Both the position numbers and the translations under genes were made by a program. A stretch of DNA of 64,000 bases, from assembly GCA_948466335.1 (NCBI GenBank), contig CAOKAE010000007.1:1-64000 (forward strand). Reading direction: 5' to 3'. This DNA is from an uncultured Coriobacteriia bacterium. GTDB lineage: Bacteria; Actinomycetota; Coriobacteriia; Coriobacteriales; QAMH01. This document shows positions 1,942-64,000 of this stretch, one piece after another (positions within the stretch are counted from its first letter, which is position 1; each line of letters opens with the position of its first letter). Under the pieces are notes generated by a model, which had not been told where the DNA came from, ran no database searches, and saw only the letters and a program-made list of their open reading frames with translations.

Positions 1942-2961
1942 GTGGCACAAATCGAAACATATCTTGCGACGCCTCTATGGCTTGCGCCCATGGCCGGTGT
2001 CACCGACCGCGCCTTTCGCGCCCTGTGTCTGCGACATGGAGCCGGCCTCACCTTCTCCGAGATGGTGAGTGCCAAGGGTCTCGAGTATAACGGCATCAAG
2101 ACCTTCGCGCTCACCGATCCGGCCGAGGAGGAGGCCGTGCTCGCCGTCCAGCTCTTCGGCTCGGAGCCCGCGTGCATGGCGCGCCAGGCCGCGCGTGTCG
2201 CCGAGCGTCTGGGGAAACGCCTTGCGCTCATCGACGTGAACATGGGATGTCCCGTGCGCAAGGTCGTGCGCCGCGGTGAGGGCTCGGCCCTCATGCAGAC
2301 CCCCGACCTGGCGGCCGATATCATACGCAGCATCGTCGATGCCGTTGACGCACCGGTCACGGCCAAGTTTCGCAGTGGCTGGACGAACGAGGAGAGAAAC
2401 GCCGTCGACTTCGCCAAGCGCCTCGAGCAGGCAGGAGCCGCGCTCGTGAGCGTGCACGGTCGCAGTGCGCGCCAGATGTATCGCGGCAAGGCGGACTGGG
2501 GCGTGATCGCGCAGGTGAAAGATGCCGTGAGCATTCCCGTCGCGGGAAGCGGCGACGTGTTCTCATACGACGATGCGTGCCGCATGCGCGAGGAGTGCGG
2601 TGTCGATGCGGTGCACGTTGCCCGCGGTGCCCGCGGCAACCCGTGGATATTCACGGGCCACGAGCCCACGCACGGCGAACGCGTCGCCGTCATGCGCGAG
2701 CACTTCGAGCTCTACCTCCACTACGCCAATCCGCTCAAGGCGCAAGATGAGCGTCCTTCGACGAGCGACGAGGCCATTTCCGCACCTCTCGACGCGTCCG
2801 CCCCATACTTGAGTCCGCTGCGTGCGCAGCTTGCCTGGTACGTGCACGGTCTGCCGTCTGCCGCGGCATTGCGGCGAGCTTTGAGCGAAGCGCGAAGCAT
2901 CGCGGACTTCGAGCGCATCTTCGACGAGGCAGATAGGCTCGCGGAAGGCGTGTCCCGATGA
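1942..2961 (+). CDS. dus: tRNA-dihydrouridine synthase
   Basis: A 339-residue flavin enzyme reducing uridines in the tRNA D-loop. Visible motifs are the N-terminal LAPMAGVTDRAFR, the catalytic-cysteine segment NMGCPVRKV near residue 93, and VHGRSARQMYRGKADW in the FMN barrel. The start is GTG, 7 bases after the lepA stop. Between residues about 260 and 290 there is a Ser/Pro/Asp-rich stretch before the C-terminal helical domain (AWYVHGLPSA) that looks longer than in typical Dus proteins. The stop overlaps the hemW start (ATGA at 2958-2961), showing translational coupling. Confidence 0.93.
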   Translation: MAQIETYLATPLWLAPMAGVTDRAFRALCLRHGAGLTFSEMVSAKGLEYNGIKTFALTDPAEEEAVLAVQLFGSEPACMARQAARVAERLGKRLALIDVNMGCPVRKVVRRGEGSALMQTPDLAADIIRSIVDAVDAPVTAKFRSGWTNEERNAVDFAKRLEQAGAALVSVHGRSARQMYRGKADWGVIAQVKDAVSIPVAGSGDVFSYDDACRMREECGVDAVHVARGARGNPWIFTGHEPTHGERVAVMREHFELYLHYANPLKAQDERPSTSDEAISAPLDASAPYLSPLRAQLAWYVHGLPSAAALRRALSEARSIADFERIFDEADRLAEGVSR

Positions 2962-4277
2962 TCGAGGCACTCTACCTGCACATTCCCTTCTGCGTCTCGC
3001 GGTGCGCGTACTGCGACTTCGCGACGAGCGCCTGCGATGACGATGCCCGCATGGATGCTTACGTGGATGCGCTATGCGTGCAGCTGCGCCGCGCGGCAAG
3101 GGCGGGGCTGCTCGGCCAGGTCAAGACGATCTACATCGGCGGCGGCACGCCCACGCACCTAGGCAGCCGACGCCTCAACACACTTGTCTACACTATCTCG
3201 CTTTCGGTCAACCTCGAAAACGTCGTCGAGTTCACCTGCGAGGCCAATCCCGAATCCATCGACGAGCGCATGGTGGCAGACCTCTTCTCGCTCGGCGTCA
3301 ATCGCTTCAGCCTCGGCGCCCAGAGCTTCGACGATGCGGTGCTCGCCGGATACGGACGCATCCACGATGCGGCGGCGATTGATGCCGCCCTCGCCGCCGT
3401 GCGCACACGCACCAATAACGTCTCGCTCGACCTCATCTGCGGAGGCCCCGGCCAGTCCATGGAATCGTGGCGGCAAAGCCTACAGCATGCCATCGACGCC
3501 GATGTCACGCACGTGAGCATCTACCCCCTCATCCTCGAGGACGACACCCCACTGGCCCGTCGCGTCGAGGCGGGGGAGTGTGCAATCGCCGATGACGATC
3601 TACAGGCCGACATGATGCTCGCCGCCTCCGAGCTCCTTGAGGCAGCTGGCTTCGAGCGCTACGAAGTCGCATCCTACGCAAAACCAGGCCTCCAATCCCA
3701 CCACAACACGGCGTATTGGACTGGTGCGGAGTATCTCGGCCTCGGGGCCGGAGCCTCGTCCATGCTCTCGCCTGAGAACGCTGAATGCGCGCTCGAAGCT
3801 GGGATATTCAAAGCGTGCGCTGAGGCTGGGTGGGGGATGCACAAAGCGAGTTTCCCTAAAGGGACTAGCTTCGCGTCGCCGCATACGAGCGAAAGCGCCA
3901 GTGGCGCTTCCGCGCGAGCTCAGGACTCTCTGAGCGACTGCGCCCCCACCCGGCCTTATGATGCTGACATCACCCGCATCCGCATCGGCGCATCGGCTGA
4001 TGATGTCGCATTCGCCGAATCGCTCGGATGCCCCCACGTCGAGGTCGAGCTACTCAGCGCCCGTCAATCCGCCGTCGAAGACCTCATGCTCGGCATGCGC
4101 CAAAGCATCGGCGTCTCGGTTGAGCAGGTGCGAGCCATCGAGGGGGCGCCCGCCGTCTTCGAGCGTCTCGAGAGCCTCGGGCTCGTGTGCCGGCGGAATG
4201 GTCGCCTCGTTCCCACCGAGCGTGGTTGGCTGCTCGGAAACGAGGTCTACGGCGCGATTTGGTCGCTCGCGTCCTAG
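2958..4277 (+). CDS. hemW: HemW-like radical SAM protein, with repeat-derived insert
   Basis: A 439-residue radical SAM protein of the HemW family (haem chaperone, formerly annotated as oxygen-independent coproporphyrinogen oxidase). The N-terminus YLHIPFCVSRCAYCDF carries the CX3CX2C 4Fe-4S motif, followed by the SAM-binding YIGGGTPTHL and GAQSFDD. The C-terminal HemW domain resumes at about residue 336 (ARQSAVEDLMLGMRQ). It is longer than the usual 370-400 residues because residues about 290-331 come from a structured repeat inserted in frame (3828-3951). The ATG overlaps the dus stop. The insert may reduce or alter function; the catalytic core is intact. Confidence 0.9.
   Translation: MIEALYLHIPFCVSRCAYCDFATSACDDDARMDAYVDALCVQLRRAARAGLLGQVKTIYIGGGTPTHLGSRRLNTLVYTISLSVNLENVVEFTCEANPESIDERMVADLFSLGVNRFSLGAQSFDDAVLAGYGRIHDAAAIDAALAAVRTRTNNVSLDLICGGPGQSMESWRQSLQHAIDADVTHVSIYPLILEDDTPLARRVEAGECAIADDDLQADMMLAASELLEAAGFERYEVASYAKPGLQSHHNTAYWTGAEYLGLGAGASSMLSPENAECALEAGIFKACAEAGWGMHKASFPKGTSFASPHTSESASGASARAQDSLSDCAPTRPYDADITRIRIGASADDVAFAESLGCPHVEVELLSARQSAVEDLMLGMRQSIGVSVEQVRAIEGAPAVFERLESLGLVCRRNGRLVPTERGWLLGNEVYGAIWSLAS
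3828..3951. repeat. Structured hairpin repeat inside hemW
   Basis: A 9-bp terminal stem (3828-3836 with 3943-3951) encloses conserved modules: GCGAGTTTCCC at 3846-3856, a 23-base block at 3861-3883 identical to 63706-63728, GCGAAAGC, a 7-bp hairpin at 3893-3909, and TCTGAGCG. The same modules occur in the element at 63601-63791 but in circularly permuted order. The reading frame of hemW stays open through it. Confidence 0.75.
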
Positions 4278-8008: not shown

Positions 8009-8010
8009 GA

Positions 8011-8066
8011 GCGTCGGGCAGGTCCCTCGCCTCGACGGTCGCTTCCCGACGGCCCACTTCGCGATG
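8011..8066. repeat. Partial tandem duplicate of the 8.07-kb hairpin element
   Basis: These 56 bases repeat the left part of the element at 8067-8170 with only a few differences, including one missing base. It carries the left terminal arm GCGTCGGGCAGGTC but has no right arm of its own. Confidence 0.75.
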
Positions 8067-8170
8067 GCGTCGGGCAGGTCGCCTCGCCTCGATGGTCGCT
8101 CCCCGACGGCCCACTTCGTGGTCCTTTCGGCTCGCTCCCTTAGACCTCAGCTCGACGACCTGCCCGACGC
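8067..8170. repeat. Structured hairpin repeat, type A, copy 1
   Basis: Terminal arms GCGTCGGGCAGGTC (8067-8080) and its exact complement at 8157-8170 enclose a core of about 58 bases that, read on the minus strand, matches the core of the element at 48187-48296 at roughly 50 of 58 positions. The terminal stems are unrelated in sequence between copies, and an internal hairpin shows a compensatory change. It fills the gap between exonuclease III and rarA. Confidence 0.8.
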
Positions 8171-8232
8171 TGGGTTATTTGACATGATAGGTGCCTGGCA
8201 CCCGTCACATTTACATGCGGTATCATGGGTCC

Positions 8233-37434: not shown

Positions 37435-37602
37435 CGGCTTCGGTGCGCGGTTGCAGACTGGCTCTCGCACCCAATCCGGACTGGATGCAATGCCGCGAAA
37501 GAACTCGCGTGCAAAGGGCGCACGCTCAGACACCTTTCGCTAAACCCGCGTTGCATCCAGTCCGAATCTGCTCGAGATGTCTGCAACCGCGCACCGAAGC
37601 CG
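37435..37602. repeat. Structured hairpin repeat between the secreted protein gene and lgt
   Basis: A perfect 24-bp outer stem (37435-37458 with 37579-37602), an inner perfect 14-bp stem (37477-37490 with 37551-37564), a 7-bp stem (GCGAAAG 37495-37501 with CTTTCGC 37534-37540) and a hairpin GCGTGC/GCACGC (37507-37525). Read on the minus strand, its junctions match those of the element at 63601-63791, while the stems differ completely. Confidence 0.85.
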
Positions 37603-42171: not shown

Positions 42172-42177
42172 GTGCAG

Positions 42178-42244
42178 ATGTGTCAGGGGGTCAGGCACCG
42201 TGGCACATGCGGGGTGTGCCACGGTGCCTGACCCCCTGACACAT
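42178..42244. repeat. Perfect 30-bp inverted repeat (paired REP-like units)
   Basis: Arms of 30 bases at 42178-42207 and 42215-42244 are exactly complementary around a seven-base loop (TGCGGGG). Each arm is a copy of the unit at 77-106. It lies 7 bases past the ruvB stop codon and could end that transcript, although no T tract follows. Confidence 0.85.
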
Positions 42245-42251
42245 CACATTT

Positions 42252-48127: not shown

Positions 48128-48152
48128 CCATCAACCTGTTCAACGCGAAGCG

Positions 48153-48186
48153 CGGGGCAAGCATTCTTGGACGTTTGCCCCGTTTG
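48153..48186 (+). terminator. Hairpin terminator after priA
   Basis: CGGGGCAAGC (48153-48162) pairs with GTTTGCCCCG (48173-48182) with one G-T wobble, followed by TTTG. It directly abuts the structured repeat that begins at 48187. Confidence 0.65.
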
Positions 48187-48296
48187 ATGTGTGCAGGCAA
48201 GCTGCGAAGCGGAGGTCCAAGGGAGCGCGCCGTAAGGACCGCGAAGCGGCCCGTCGGGAAGCGACCGTCGGAGCAAAGCAGCTTGCCTGCACACAT
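48187..48296. repeat. Structured hairpin repeat, type A, copy 2
   Basis: A perfect 19-bp terminal stem (48187-48205 with 48278-48296) encloses the core GAGGTCCAAGGGAGCG, GCCGTAAGGACC, GCGAAGCGG, CCGTCGGGAAGCGACC. The complement of 8067-8170 has the same core. The internal hairpin CCGCGAAGCGG corresponds to CCACGAAGTGG in the other copy, a G-C to A-T pair replacement. Confidence 0.85.
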
Positions 48297-48320
48297 ATTG
48301 TGAGGCATGGGAAAAAATCA

Positions 48321-48349
48321 TTGCCCCGTGCTTCGCGTTGCTGTATCCT
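48321..48349 (+). promoter_or_regulatory. Predicted promoter for rplS
   Basis: TTGCCC at 48321-48326 and TATCCT at 48344-48349 are separated by 17 bases, about 77 bases before the rplS ATG. The leader between could hold regulation but no known L19 leader motif was recognised. Confidence 0.5.
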
Positions 48350-62881: not shown

Positions 62882-64000
62882 ATGTGCGCGCAGACCGAAA
62901 ACCTACACGACGTGACACGCGCGCATCGTGACACCCTCATCCTCACGCTTGTCGCGGTTGGCCTTTTCTTCGTGTCGATCATCGTGCGCTTCTGCCTTGC
63001 AGATTTCCCCAAGTGCATCGGGGTGCTCCCCGACGAGATTCGCTACCTCAATCTCGCCTCGAGCCTCTTCAACGAGGGGCAGCTCATCGAGCGTGGCGGG
63101 TTCTCGAGTTTCCAGAAGATTCTCTATCCGTTTACGCTCTTCCCGGCCTATCTTACCGATGATCCGCTGCTGCGCGTGCGTCTCATCGCGCTGCTCAACA
63201 GCGTCTACGTCTCGTCAGCCGTCTTTCCGGCCCTGCTCATCGCACGCAAGCTCTTCACCGGCAAGGTACCGGTCATCATCTGCCTGTTCTTCACCGTCAT
63301 CATGCCCGACATGTGCTATTCGATGACGTTCTTGAGCGAGTGCATCTACCTGCCTCTCGTGCTCTGGCTCGTCCTGTGCTGCTGGCAGGCACTTGAGAAG
63401 CGCGGTAAGGCGGCGTATCTCTGGTGCTTCGGCGCAGGATTGCTCTCTTTTATCACCTACCTCGCCAAAGAGGTGGCTTTGGGCTTTGTCCTGGCCTTCA
63501 TTGTTTTGATGATTGTGCGCATTGTTCGCGAATGGGGATATGAGACAAAATGTGCCACGGGATCAGACCCCATGGCACATAAAGCAACCGATACAGTGAC
63601 GGGGGACGCAGAGAATAATCCGGGCATCTTGAGCGGATCCGCATCGAGCGCGATGCGATCTTGCGAGGACTGTCTGAGCGCGCCACAGACGCGCGAGTTT
63701 CCCGCGGGACTAGCTTCGCGTCGCCGCAGCAGCATCACGCTCGATGCGGATCGGGCGCGAAAGCAAGCCCGGATTATTCTCTGCGTCCCCCTCTTTTGTT
63801 TCCTGATGGGCTTCATCATCCCCTTTCTTATCTTCAAGTTCACGCTCTTCGCGGGCCTCCTCAACTCCTATAACCAGACCGACCCATCCGTCCTGCTCAA
63901 CCCCTACACCGTGCTCTTCGCCCTGTACGCACTCGTGAGCGATACGACCCACTTCGTCATCGCATTCGCGTTCTTCCCGCTCGTGCTGCCCGCGCTCACT
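62882..64000 (+). CDS. Multi-pass membrane protein, GT-C glycosyltransferase-like, 3' end outside the window
   Basis: The frame is open from ATG 62882 to the window end (373 residues and on). The N-terminal helix at residues about 20-40 is followed by VLPDEIRYLNLASSLF, an acidic first-loop motif as in GT-C/PMT-type glycosyltransferases, then several helices. Residues about 223-303 are hydrophilic, Cys/Ser/Arg-rich and derived from two repeats (63551-63579 and 63601-63791) in frame, placed between two helices. The protein then resumes with helices (LCVPLFCFLMGFIIPFLIF). Polymer or lipid glycosylation is a guess. Confidence 0.75.
   Translation, partial: MCAQTENLHDVTRAHRDTLILTLVAVGLFFVSIIVRFCLADFPKCIGVLPDEIRYLNLASSLFNEGQLIERGGFSSFQKILYPFTLFPAYLTDDPLLRVRLIALLNSVYVSSAVFPALLIARKLFTGKVPVIICLFFTVIMPDMCYSMTFLSECIYLPLVLWLVLCCWQALEKRGKAAYLWCFGAGLLSFITYLAKEVALGFVLAFIVLMIVRIVREWGYETKCATGSDPMAHKATDTVTGDAENNPGILSGSASSAMRSCEDCLSAPQTREFPAGLASRRRSSITLDADRARKQARIILCVPLFCFLMGFIIPFLIFKFTLFAGLLNSYNQTDPSVLLNPYTVLFALYALVSDTTHFVIAFAFFPLVLPALT
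63551..63579. repeat. REP-like palindrome inside the last gene
   Basis: TGTGCCACGGG, then ATCAGA, then CCCCATGGCACA: an imperfect palindrome related to the units at 77-106 and 42178-42244. It is read through in frame. Confidence 0.75.
63601..63791. repeat. Structured hairpin repeat inside the last gene
   Basis: A perfect 25-bp outer stem (63601-63625 with 63767-63791) and an inner stem of 15 pairs, one mismatch and 5 pairs (63636-63656 with 63732-63752). Inside are the conserved GCGAGGACTGTCTGAGCG, a CGCGC/GCGCG hairpin (63679-63695), GCGAGTTTCCC and the 23-base block shared with hemW. Junctions match the complement of 37435-37602. Confidence 0.88.

Follow-up and report, generated by a model that had tools for sequence, protein, structure and literature searches.

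A palindromic element of ∼110 nt, found at two sites in the window (the whole stretch of 64,000 nucleotides that was analyzed), recurs at many loci of the uncultured Coriobacteriia genome from which the window derives (G000; 1.89 Mb, 35 contigs) and is probably a non-autonomous mobile hairpin of a REP/MITE-like kind that would be propagated through a folded single strand. This is the best reading of the sequence data because the element is multi-copy and restricted to one genus, is present or absent at orthologous sites, lies at gene 3′ ends, nests in other copies at a fixed site, has arms that are decoupled from its core, and displays no compensation of arm changes in place.

Copies of the element in the window and in the genome

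A first-pass annotation of this DNA had proposed two hairpins with a shared core, at 48.2 and 8.1 kb. Both hairpins proved to be real, with cores that match at 82% over 72 nt. The perfect terminal stems were likewise recovered, at 19 bp for the 48.2-kb copy, as claimed, and at 15–17 bp for the 8.1-kb copy, slightly above the 14 bp claimed. The features at the two sites are as follows.

48187..48296, + strand: element copy A, full length (covariance match of 115.4 bits)
48187-48205 / 48278-48296, + strand: arms of copy A, 19 bp with zero mismatches
48206-48277, + strand: core of copy A
48239-48249, + strand: apical C(GAA)G hairpin of copy A, sequence CCGCGAAGCGG
8067..8172, − strand: element copy B, full length, with arms of 15–17 bp and apical CCACGAAGTGG
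8064-8175, − strand: covariance match of copy B (120.4 bits)
8010..8063, − strand: right half of a second, interrupted element in which copy B is apparently nested (DNA match 8033-8063; parallel at L080)
8173..8185, − strand: 5′ leader TCAAATAACCCA, which precedes many copies of the GCGTCGG-arm subfamily
48141..48168, + strand: left half of an outer inverted repeat around copy A, 86% complementary to 48313-48340
48313..48340, + strand: right half of this outer inverted repeat, also found in the sister species
48154..48181, + strand: separate small hairpin GGGGCAAGC...TTTGCCCC between priA and copy A, identified by sequence inspection

In copy B, 8067-8081 pairs perfectly with 8156-8170, and the predicted fold extends the stem to 17 bp. 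RNA folding of the two window copies gave z values of −5.9 and −7.8 against 200 shuffles, none of which folded as well (0/200). Both copies are intergenic, as had been noted, and lie 3′ of xthA (exonuclease III) and of priA, with mgsA/rarA and rplS as the next genes. The 3′ arm of the interrupted element at 8010..8063 starts ∼2 nt past the xthA stop codon, and in the sister species this half is accompanied by another inner copy (L080).

The exchange of apical CCGCGAAGCGG for CCACGAAGTGG was found as described in the first-pass annotation. Its wobble pairing of GGTCC with GGACC was not upheld; the supported partner of GGACC is GGCC/GGCCC around the apical stem, at which eight copies have AG/CT in place of GG/CC. 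The terminal arms are dissimilar between the two window copies, as stated, but each resembles the arms of other copies: the 48.2-kb arm is similar to those of L070, L080, and L096, and the 8.1-kb arm GCGTCGGGCAGG recurs in many copies. A separate 31-bp perfect hairpin in the window (GATGTGTCAGGGGGTCAGGCACCGTGGCACA, 42177-42245) has related sequences that adjoin other copies of the element.

A DNA search returned 26 genomic matches to the element at E ≤ 1e-3. A covariance model, built from an alignment of 22 copies (A1), was then used for the genome search that had been suggested as a check, which gave 30 matches, comprising ∼24 full-length and ∼6 partial copies, two of them cut by contig ends; many copies with signs of mobility are present in this and the related genome. 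In A1, 94.1% of cells form standard pairs, compared with 80.3% after shuffling and at most 43% when partners were slid. Double-sided changes were present in 22 of 36 pairs, and the covariation exceeded that of all 500 shuffles and all slid controls. Together with the numbers of DNA and model matches, this argues that the element is not a product of chance.

The element contains no gene and is often preceded by a 5′ leader of 13–16 nt (consensus ATCAAGTAACCTA); immediately 5′ of the hairpin, (A)ACCTA is found in one subfamily and the sequence is unconserved in others. The predicted fold is a rod composed of the 17–19-bp arms, a 3-bp GCC/GGC helix and other short helices, separated by purine internal loops (5′-GA/5′-GA and similar), and a C(GAA)G cap. 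The oligonucleotide d(GCGAAGC) is an extraordinarily stable DNA mini-hairpin, and such a cap would be compatible with a single-stranded DNA form, although it is not proof of one.

Taxonomic range and insertion sites

Among 61 genomes (this one and 60 relatives), the element was found only in G000 and in the sister species of the same genus, G001, which has ∼25 copies. No copies were detected in the third species of the genus (G002) or in 58 further relatives. A few other genera of the same order contain weak relatives (28–42 bits), and a search of 300 genomes of the class added three with weak matches (G312, G304, and G289; E of 1e-6 to 3e-5 per genome). The family in G304 is ∼130 nt long and has the motifs GAGCCGAGGTCAAG and TCGAGGCGA in common with the element, and G306 contains a related single copy (37.7 bits). 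The pattern GAGCCGAGGTN{40,70}TCGAGGCGA was present in 5 of 400 genomes, namely G000, G304, G306, and two with unrelated-looking single matches, whereas a backwards control of the pattern was absent from all 400. The weak matches and the motifs shared with G304 and G306 make a wider superfamily across genera likely, but not proven. Cross-phylum matches from a separate pattern search (the Clostridia Lapin-033 L027, UBA10799 L030, Deltaproteobacteria, Christensenella, Acidobacteria, and Rhodobacter) were rejected on unconvincing model scores, and their number is close to the chance expectation for that search pattern; a single match in a viral contig (L176) also failed the covariance model. Phage and plasmid records contained no match to the element. 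A direct search of open-access literature for repetitive extragenic palindromes in Coriobacteriia yielded nothing relevant. The mobile family is apparently undescribed and, perhaps together with a wider superfamily, is an addition to those of a major group of gut bacteria.

The ∼130-nt family of G304, which belongs to another genus, is a separate multi-copy hairpin family (L133 and L135-L141) in which the arms are conserved and the apical stems are exchanged between copies. Rfam micro-RNA matches in L133 fell below gathering scores and were dismissed as ordinary long-stem artefacts.

The flanks of G000 and G001 are ∼94–96% identical at most loci, and at many orthologous sites the element is present in one species and absent from the other (for example L090>L124 and L054>L115). 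The empty sites at L093 and L084 contain 6–7 nt where the insert would be. In several cases filled sites differ from empty ones by extra flank, and no clean target-site duplication was evident, although overlaps of 4 nt were seen at L090/L124, L054/L115, and L076/L127 and at none of the other sites. The site of L062 is occupied in the sister species by a member of another long-hairpin family (L108).

Nesting occurs at one apical position, after GGGAGCGC and before CGAAGCGGG, and can be followed in three pairs of nested and uninterrupted copies (L056 versus L086, L059 versus L087, and L094 versus L058). Halves of interrupted copies were found at L071, at L093, and in the window at 8010-8063. 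Recombination between copies is also evident (L099, L080, and L096/L122), as is an inversion at L046/L088.

Almost every copy borders on the 3′ end of at least one gene, several are situated between convergent genes, and in nine copies the 3′ end of the element is −10 to +9 nt from the stop codon, as judged from approximate gene calls made near the copies with a simple codon-usage score. Inspection by eye of ORFs next to a number of copies revealed an AbiEi/AbiEii-like toxin-antitoxin pair beside one copy (L065:1690-2954) and a kinase-regulator-like protein; no transposase was recognized among them.

Arms and core in orthologous and paralogous copies

Copies from both species were fitted to the model (alignment A2, n = 51 after removal of one reverse-strand duplicate), and the eight loci at which both species have the element served as the ortholog comparison; the whole comparison rests on two draft genomes, and the structural statements are predictions. 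In orthologous copies, arm pairs had changed on one side in 13 cases, on both sides in 1, and with compensation in 0. In contrast, paralogs with a core divergence of ≤3% differed at ∼43% of arm positions, with a mean of 2.1 one-sided and 5.7 compensated pairs. Fisher's test of orthologs against paralogs gave a value of 5e-7, which treats cells as independent, though cells within the family are not. Arm divergence was flat (40–52%) whatever the core distance; between L062 and L086, the cores are identical and the arms 71% different. Arms form families that are common to several loci.

The one-sided changes in orthologs as opposed to the compensated changes in paralogs indicate that arm complementarity is renewed in the moving or copied lineage, apparently at copying, and decays after insertion rather than being maintained in place. 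The structured element with compensatory changes that the first-pass annotation described is upheld, but these changes are not to be taken as a sign of in-place functional selection, since compensation is absent between orthologous copies. Frequent recombination between copies could contribute to the decoupling of arms and core, and any constraint on the core in the mobile lineage would keep core divergence from serving as a neutral clock.

A functional structure is often regarded as proven once compensatory base-pair changes are seen. In this family, compensation is abundant between dispersed copies and absent between orthologs and would thus reflect the way in which the element is copied. 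Should this be true, a control with orthologs is required before covariation in multi-copy palindromes can be put down to function, and the family offers a natural system with which to test the renewal of hairpin arms.

Propagation of the element

For a mobile hairpin, the following scheme is proposed. A putative single-strand-processing enzyme probably moves the element in trans, the moving form would be the folded sense strand, and copying of this strand would renew complementarity as one arm is re-synthesized on the other. Alternatively, renewal might come about if only copies with intact pairing between the arms are passed on, while recombination reshuffles cores and arms. A stronger proposal, that the arms are rebuilt by fold-back synthesis at each copying and the core alone is inherited unchanged, with the covariation reflecting copying and not functional selection, is doubtful on present evidence; if it were true, the weakly related families in G304, G306, and G312 would belong to the same class. 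Several points weigh against the mobile-hairpin reading: no transposase carries the element, target-site duplications are not clean, the ortholog comparison is limited to eight pairs and cells within the family are non-independent, and copies clearly recombine with one another often (L099, L080, and L046/L088).

The ends of IS200/IS605 elements are imperfect hairpins that are processed as single strands. The element resembles them in being an imperfect hairpin, but no IS200/IS605 element with its ends was found. Bacterial MITEs include ERIC/RU, Correia/NEMIS, and RUP and usually make a target-site duplication. They keep conserved terminal inverted repeats that match the parent transposase, whereas the ends of the present element are its variable part and no clear duplication was seen with it. 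Bacterial MITEs are ∼100–170 bp in size, intergenic, hairpin-forming, and non-autonomous (PMC2229807), and the element is like them in each of these respects.

REPs are characterized as dispersed extragenic palindromes with complementary stem changes between copies (PMC2817692; PMC3116915). The element is itself a dispersed extragenic palindrome in many copies, and it shares with REP/RAYT and REPIN/BIME systems a non-coding nature, a position at gene ends, an occurrence in few genomes, and complementary stem changes. It differs in size (∼110 nt, compared with 20–40 nt for REPs), in having a conserved core and variable arms instead of a conserved stem, in the absence of an unpaired GTAG (or GTGG) head, in flanking no RAYT, and in nesting in its own apex. 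CGTC-tagged REPs have been reported without a dedicated transposase (PMC3733652) and are similarly palindromic and multi-copy, but they have 8–9-bp stems, 4–5-nt loops, and an unpaired CGTC, none of which describes the element; where it contains GCGTC, this lies in the paired arm and varies between copies.

Two Y1 transposase genes are present in the genome, and both match the NCBI REP-associated tyrosine transposase (RAYT) model, below its cut-off.

L091:890-2299: RAYT-like transposase gene (RAYT-1) with its own REP family
L092:287-1618: RAYT-like transposase gene (RAYT-2) with its own REP family

The presence of RAYT genes, which had been raised as a point to check, was confirmed for the genome, but both genes carry other REPs and neither is near this element. 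RAYT-1 is bracketed by AATGAGACA..TGTCTCATT pairs and RAYT-2 is adjoined by GGGTCTGTCCCC repeats; G001 has a counterpart of each, again accompanied by these repeats. The RAYT loci of G000 (L091 and L092) and G001 (L129 and L131) contain TGAGACA or GGGTCTGTC repeats; no copy of the element is present at these loci, and no RAYT there is flanked by two inverted copies of it. At the 48.2-kb site, the sister species has in place of copy A a short hairpin (AAAATGAGACAAATA..TATTTGTCTCATTTTT) that resembles the REP bracketing RAYT-1.

That the element is an ordinary REP-type sequence mobilized in trans by a resident RAYT is possible, if unlikely. RAYTs are single-strand-processing HUH/Y1 enzymes (PMC2817692; PMC6006769), and both element-bearing genomes have two of them, whereas the element-free G002 of the same genus has none. 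However, the two RAYTs are bracketed by REP families that differ from each other and in no case by this element, the element is 3–5 times longer than REPs and has no unpaired GTAG head, and G005 has a RAYT but not the element; only three genomes of the genus enter this comparison.

Template switching makes and maintains perfect stems, homogenizes arms, and inverts loops (PMC8794818; PMC8604942), and signs of it were found near the element. Copy A is enclosed (window 48141-48340) by a 20–28-nt inverted copy of the sequence upstream of rplS, the left half (48141..48168) being the reverse complement of the ancestral sequence 5′ of rplS; the sister species lacks this inverted copy and has the right half only (L106). 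A palindromic element of ∼134 nt lies in frame within hemW (2958-4277) at 3823-3956, and at this place in the sister species the spacer is also present, but inverted and between different, likewise complementary arms. At 63601-63791, an element of ∼190 nt, of the same family as that in hemW, lies in frame within a membrane-protein ORF that begins at 62882; the sister species differs at this locus by the replacement of a ten-base block in both arms, and G002 has no element there. The enclosing repeat of copy A, the spacer inversion, and the block replacement indicate that template switching acts in this lineage. The kinship with the hemW element suggested by the first-pass annotation was not borne out, as the family model, applied to the whole window, has no matches at E ≤ 1 other than the two known copies.

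It is nevertheless improbable that the element is not itself mobile and that template switching makes or reshapes the hairpins while homologous recombination mixes the copies. Template switching alone cannot put a 70-nt core at 25–30 dispersed loci, and despite its traces nearby the arms of this family show zero compensated changes in place.

A functional RNA or 3′-end element (a terminator, mRNA stabilizer, or regulator) whose fold is under selection would account for the strong covariation, the very stable predicted fold, and the position after stop codons. In orthologous copies, however, uncompensated arm changes pile up, and several sites in the sister species have another hairpin or nothing. 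Neither window site has a U-tract terminator (GC-rich stem plus T-run), and no curated Rfam covariance model matches the element. Strand relative to the adjacent gene is 11:9, an absence of preference more in keeping with DNA than with mRNA. A role as terminator or regulatory RNA is accordingly not favored and has a low probability. Least probable of all, and to be largely discounted, is a core that enters the loop of pre-existing hairpins or inversely duplicates the target flank: this would account for the unrelated perfect arms around identical cores, and the right arm of the 62882-ORF element, from the other family, could be native to the coding sequence, but empty sites lack the arm sequences and the arms belong to families found at several loci.

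Long hairpins of a third family were also observed. One lies in the window at 37435-37602, before lgt, and its relative in the sister species, L108, has a conserved inner part and perfect outer arms that are different.
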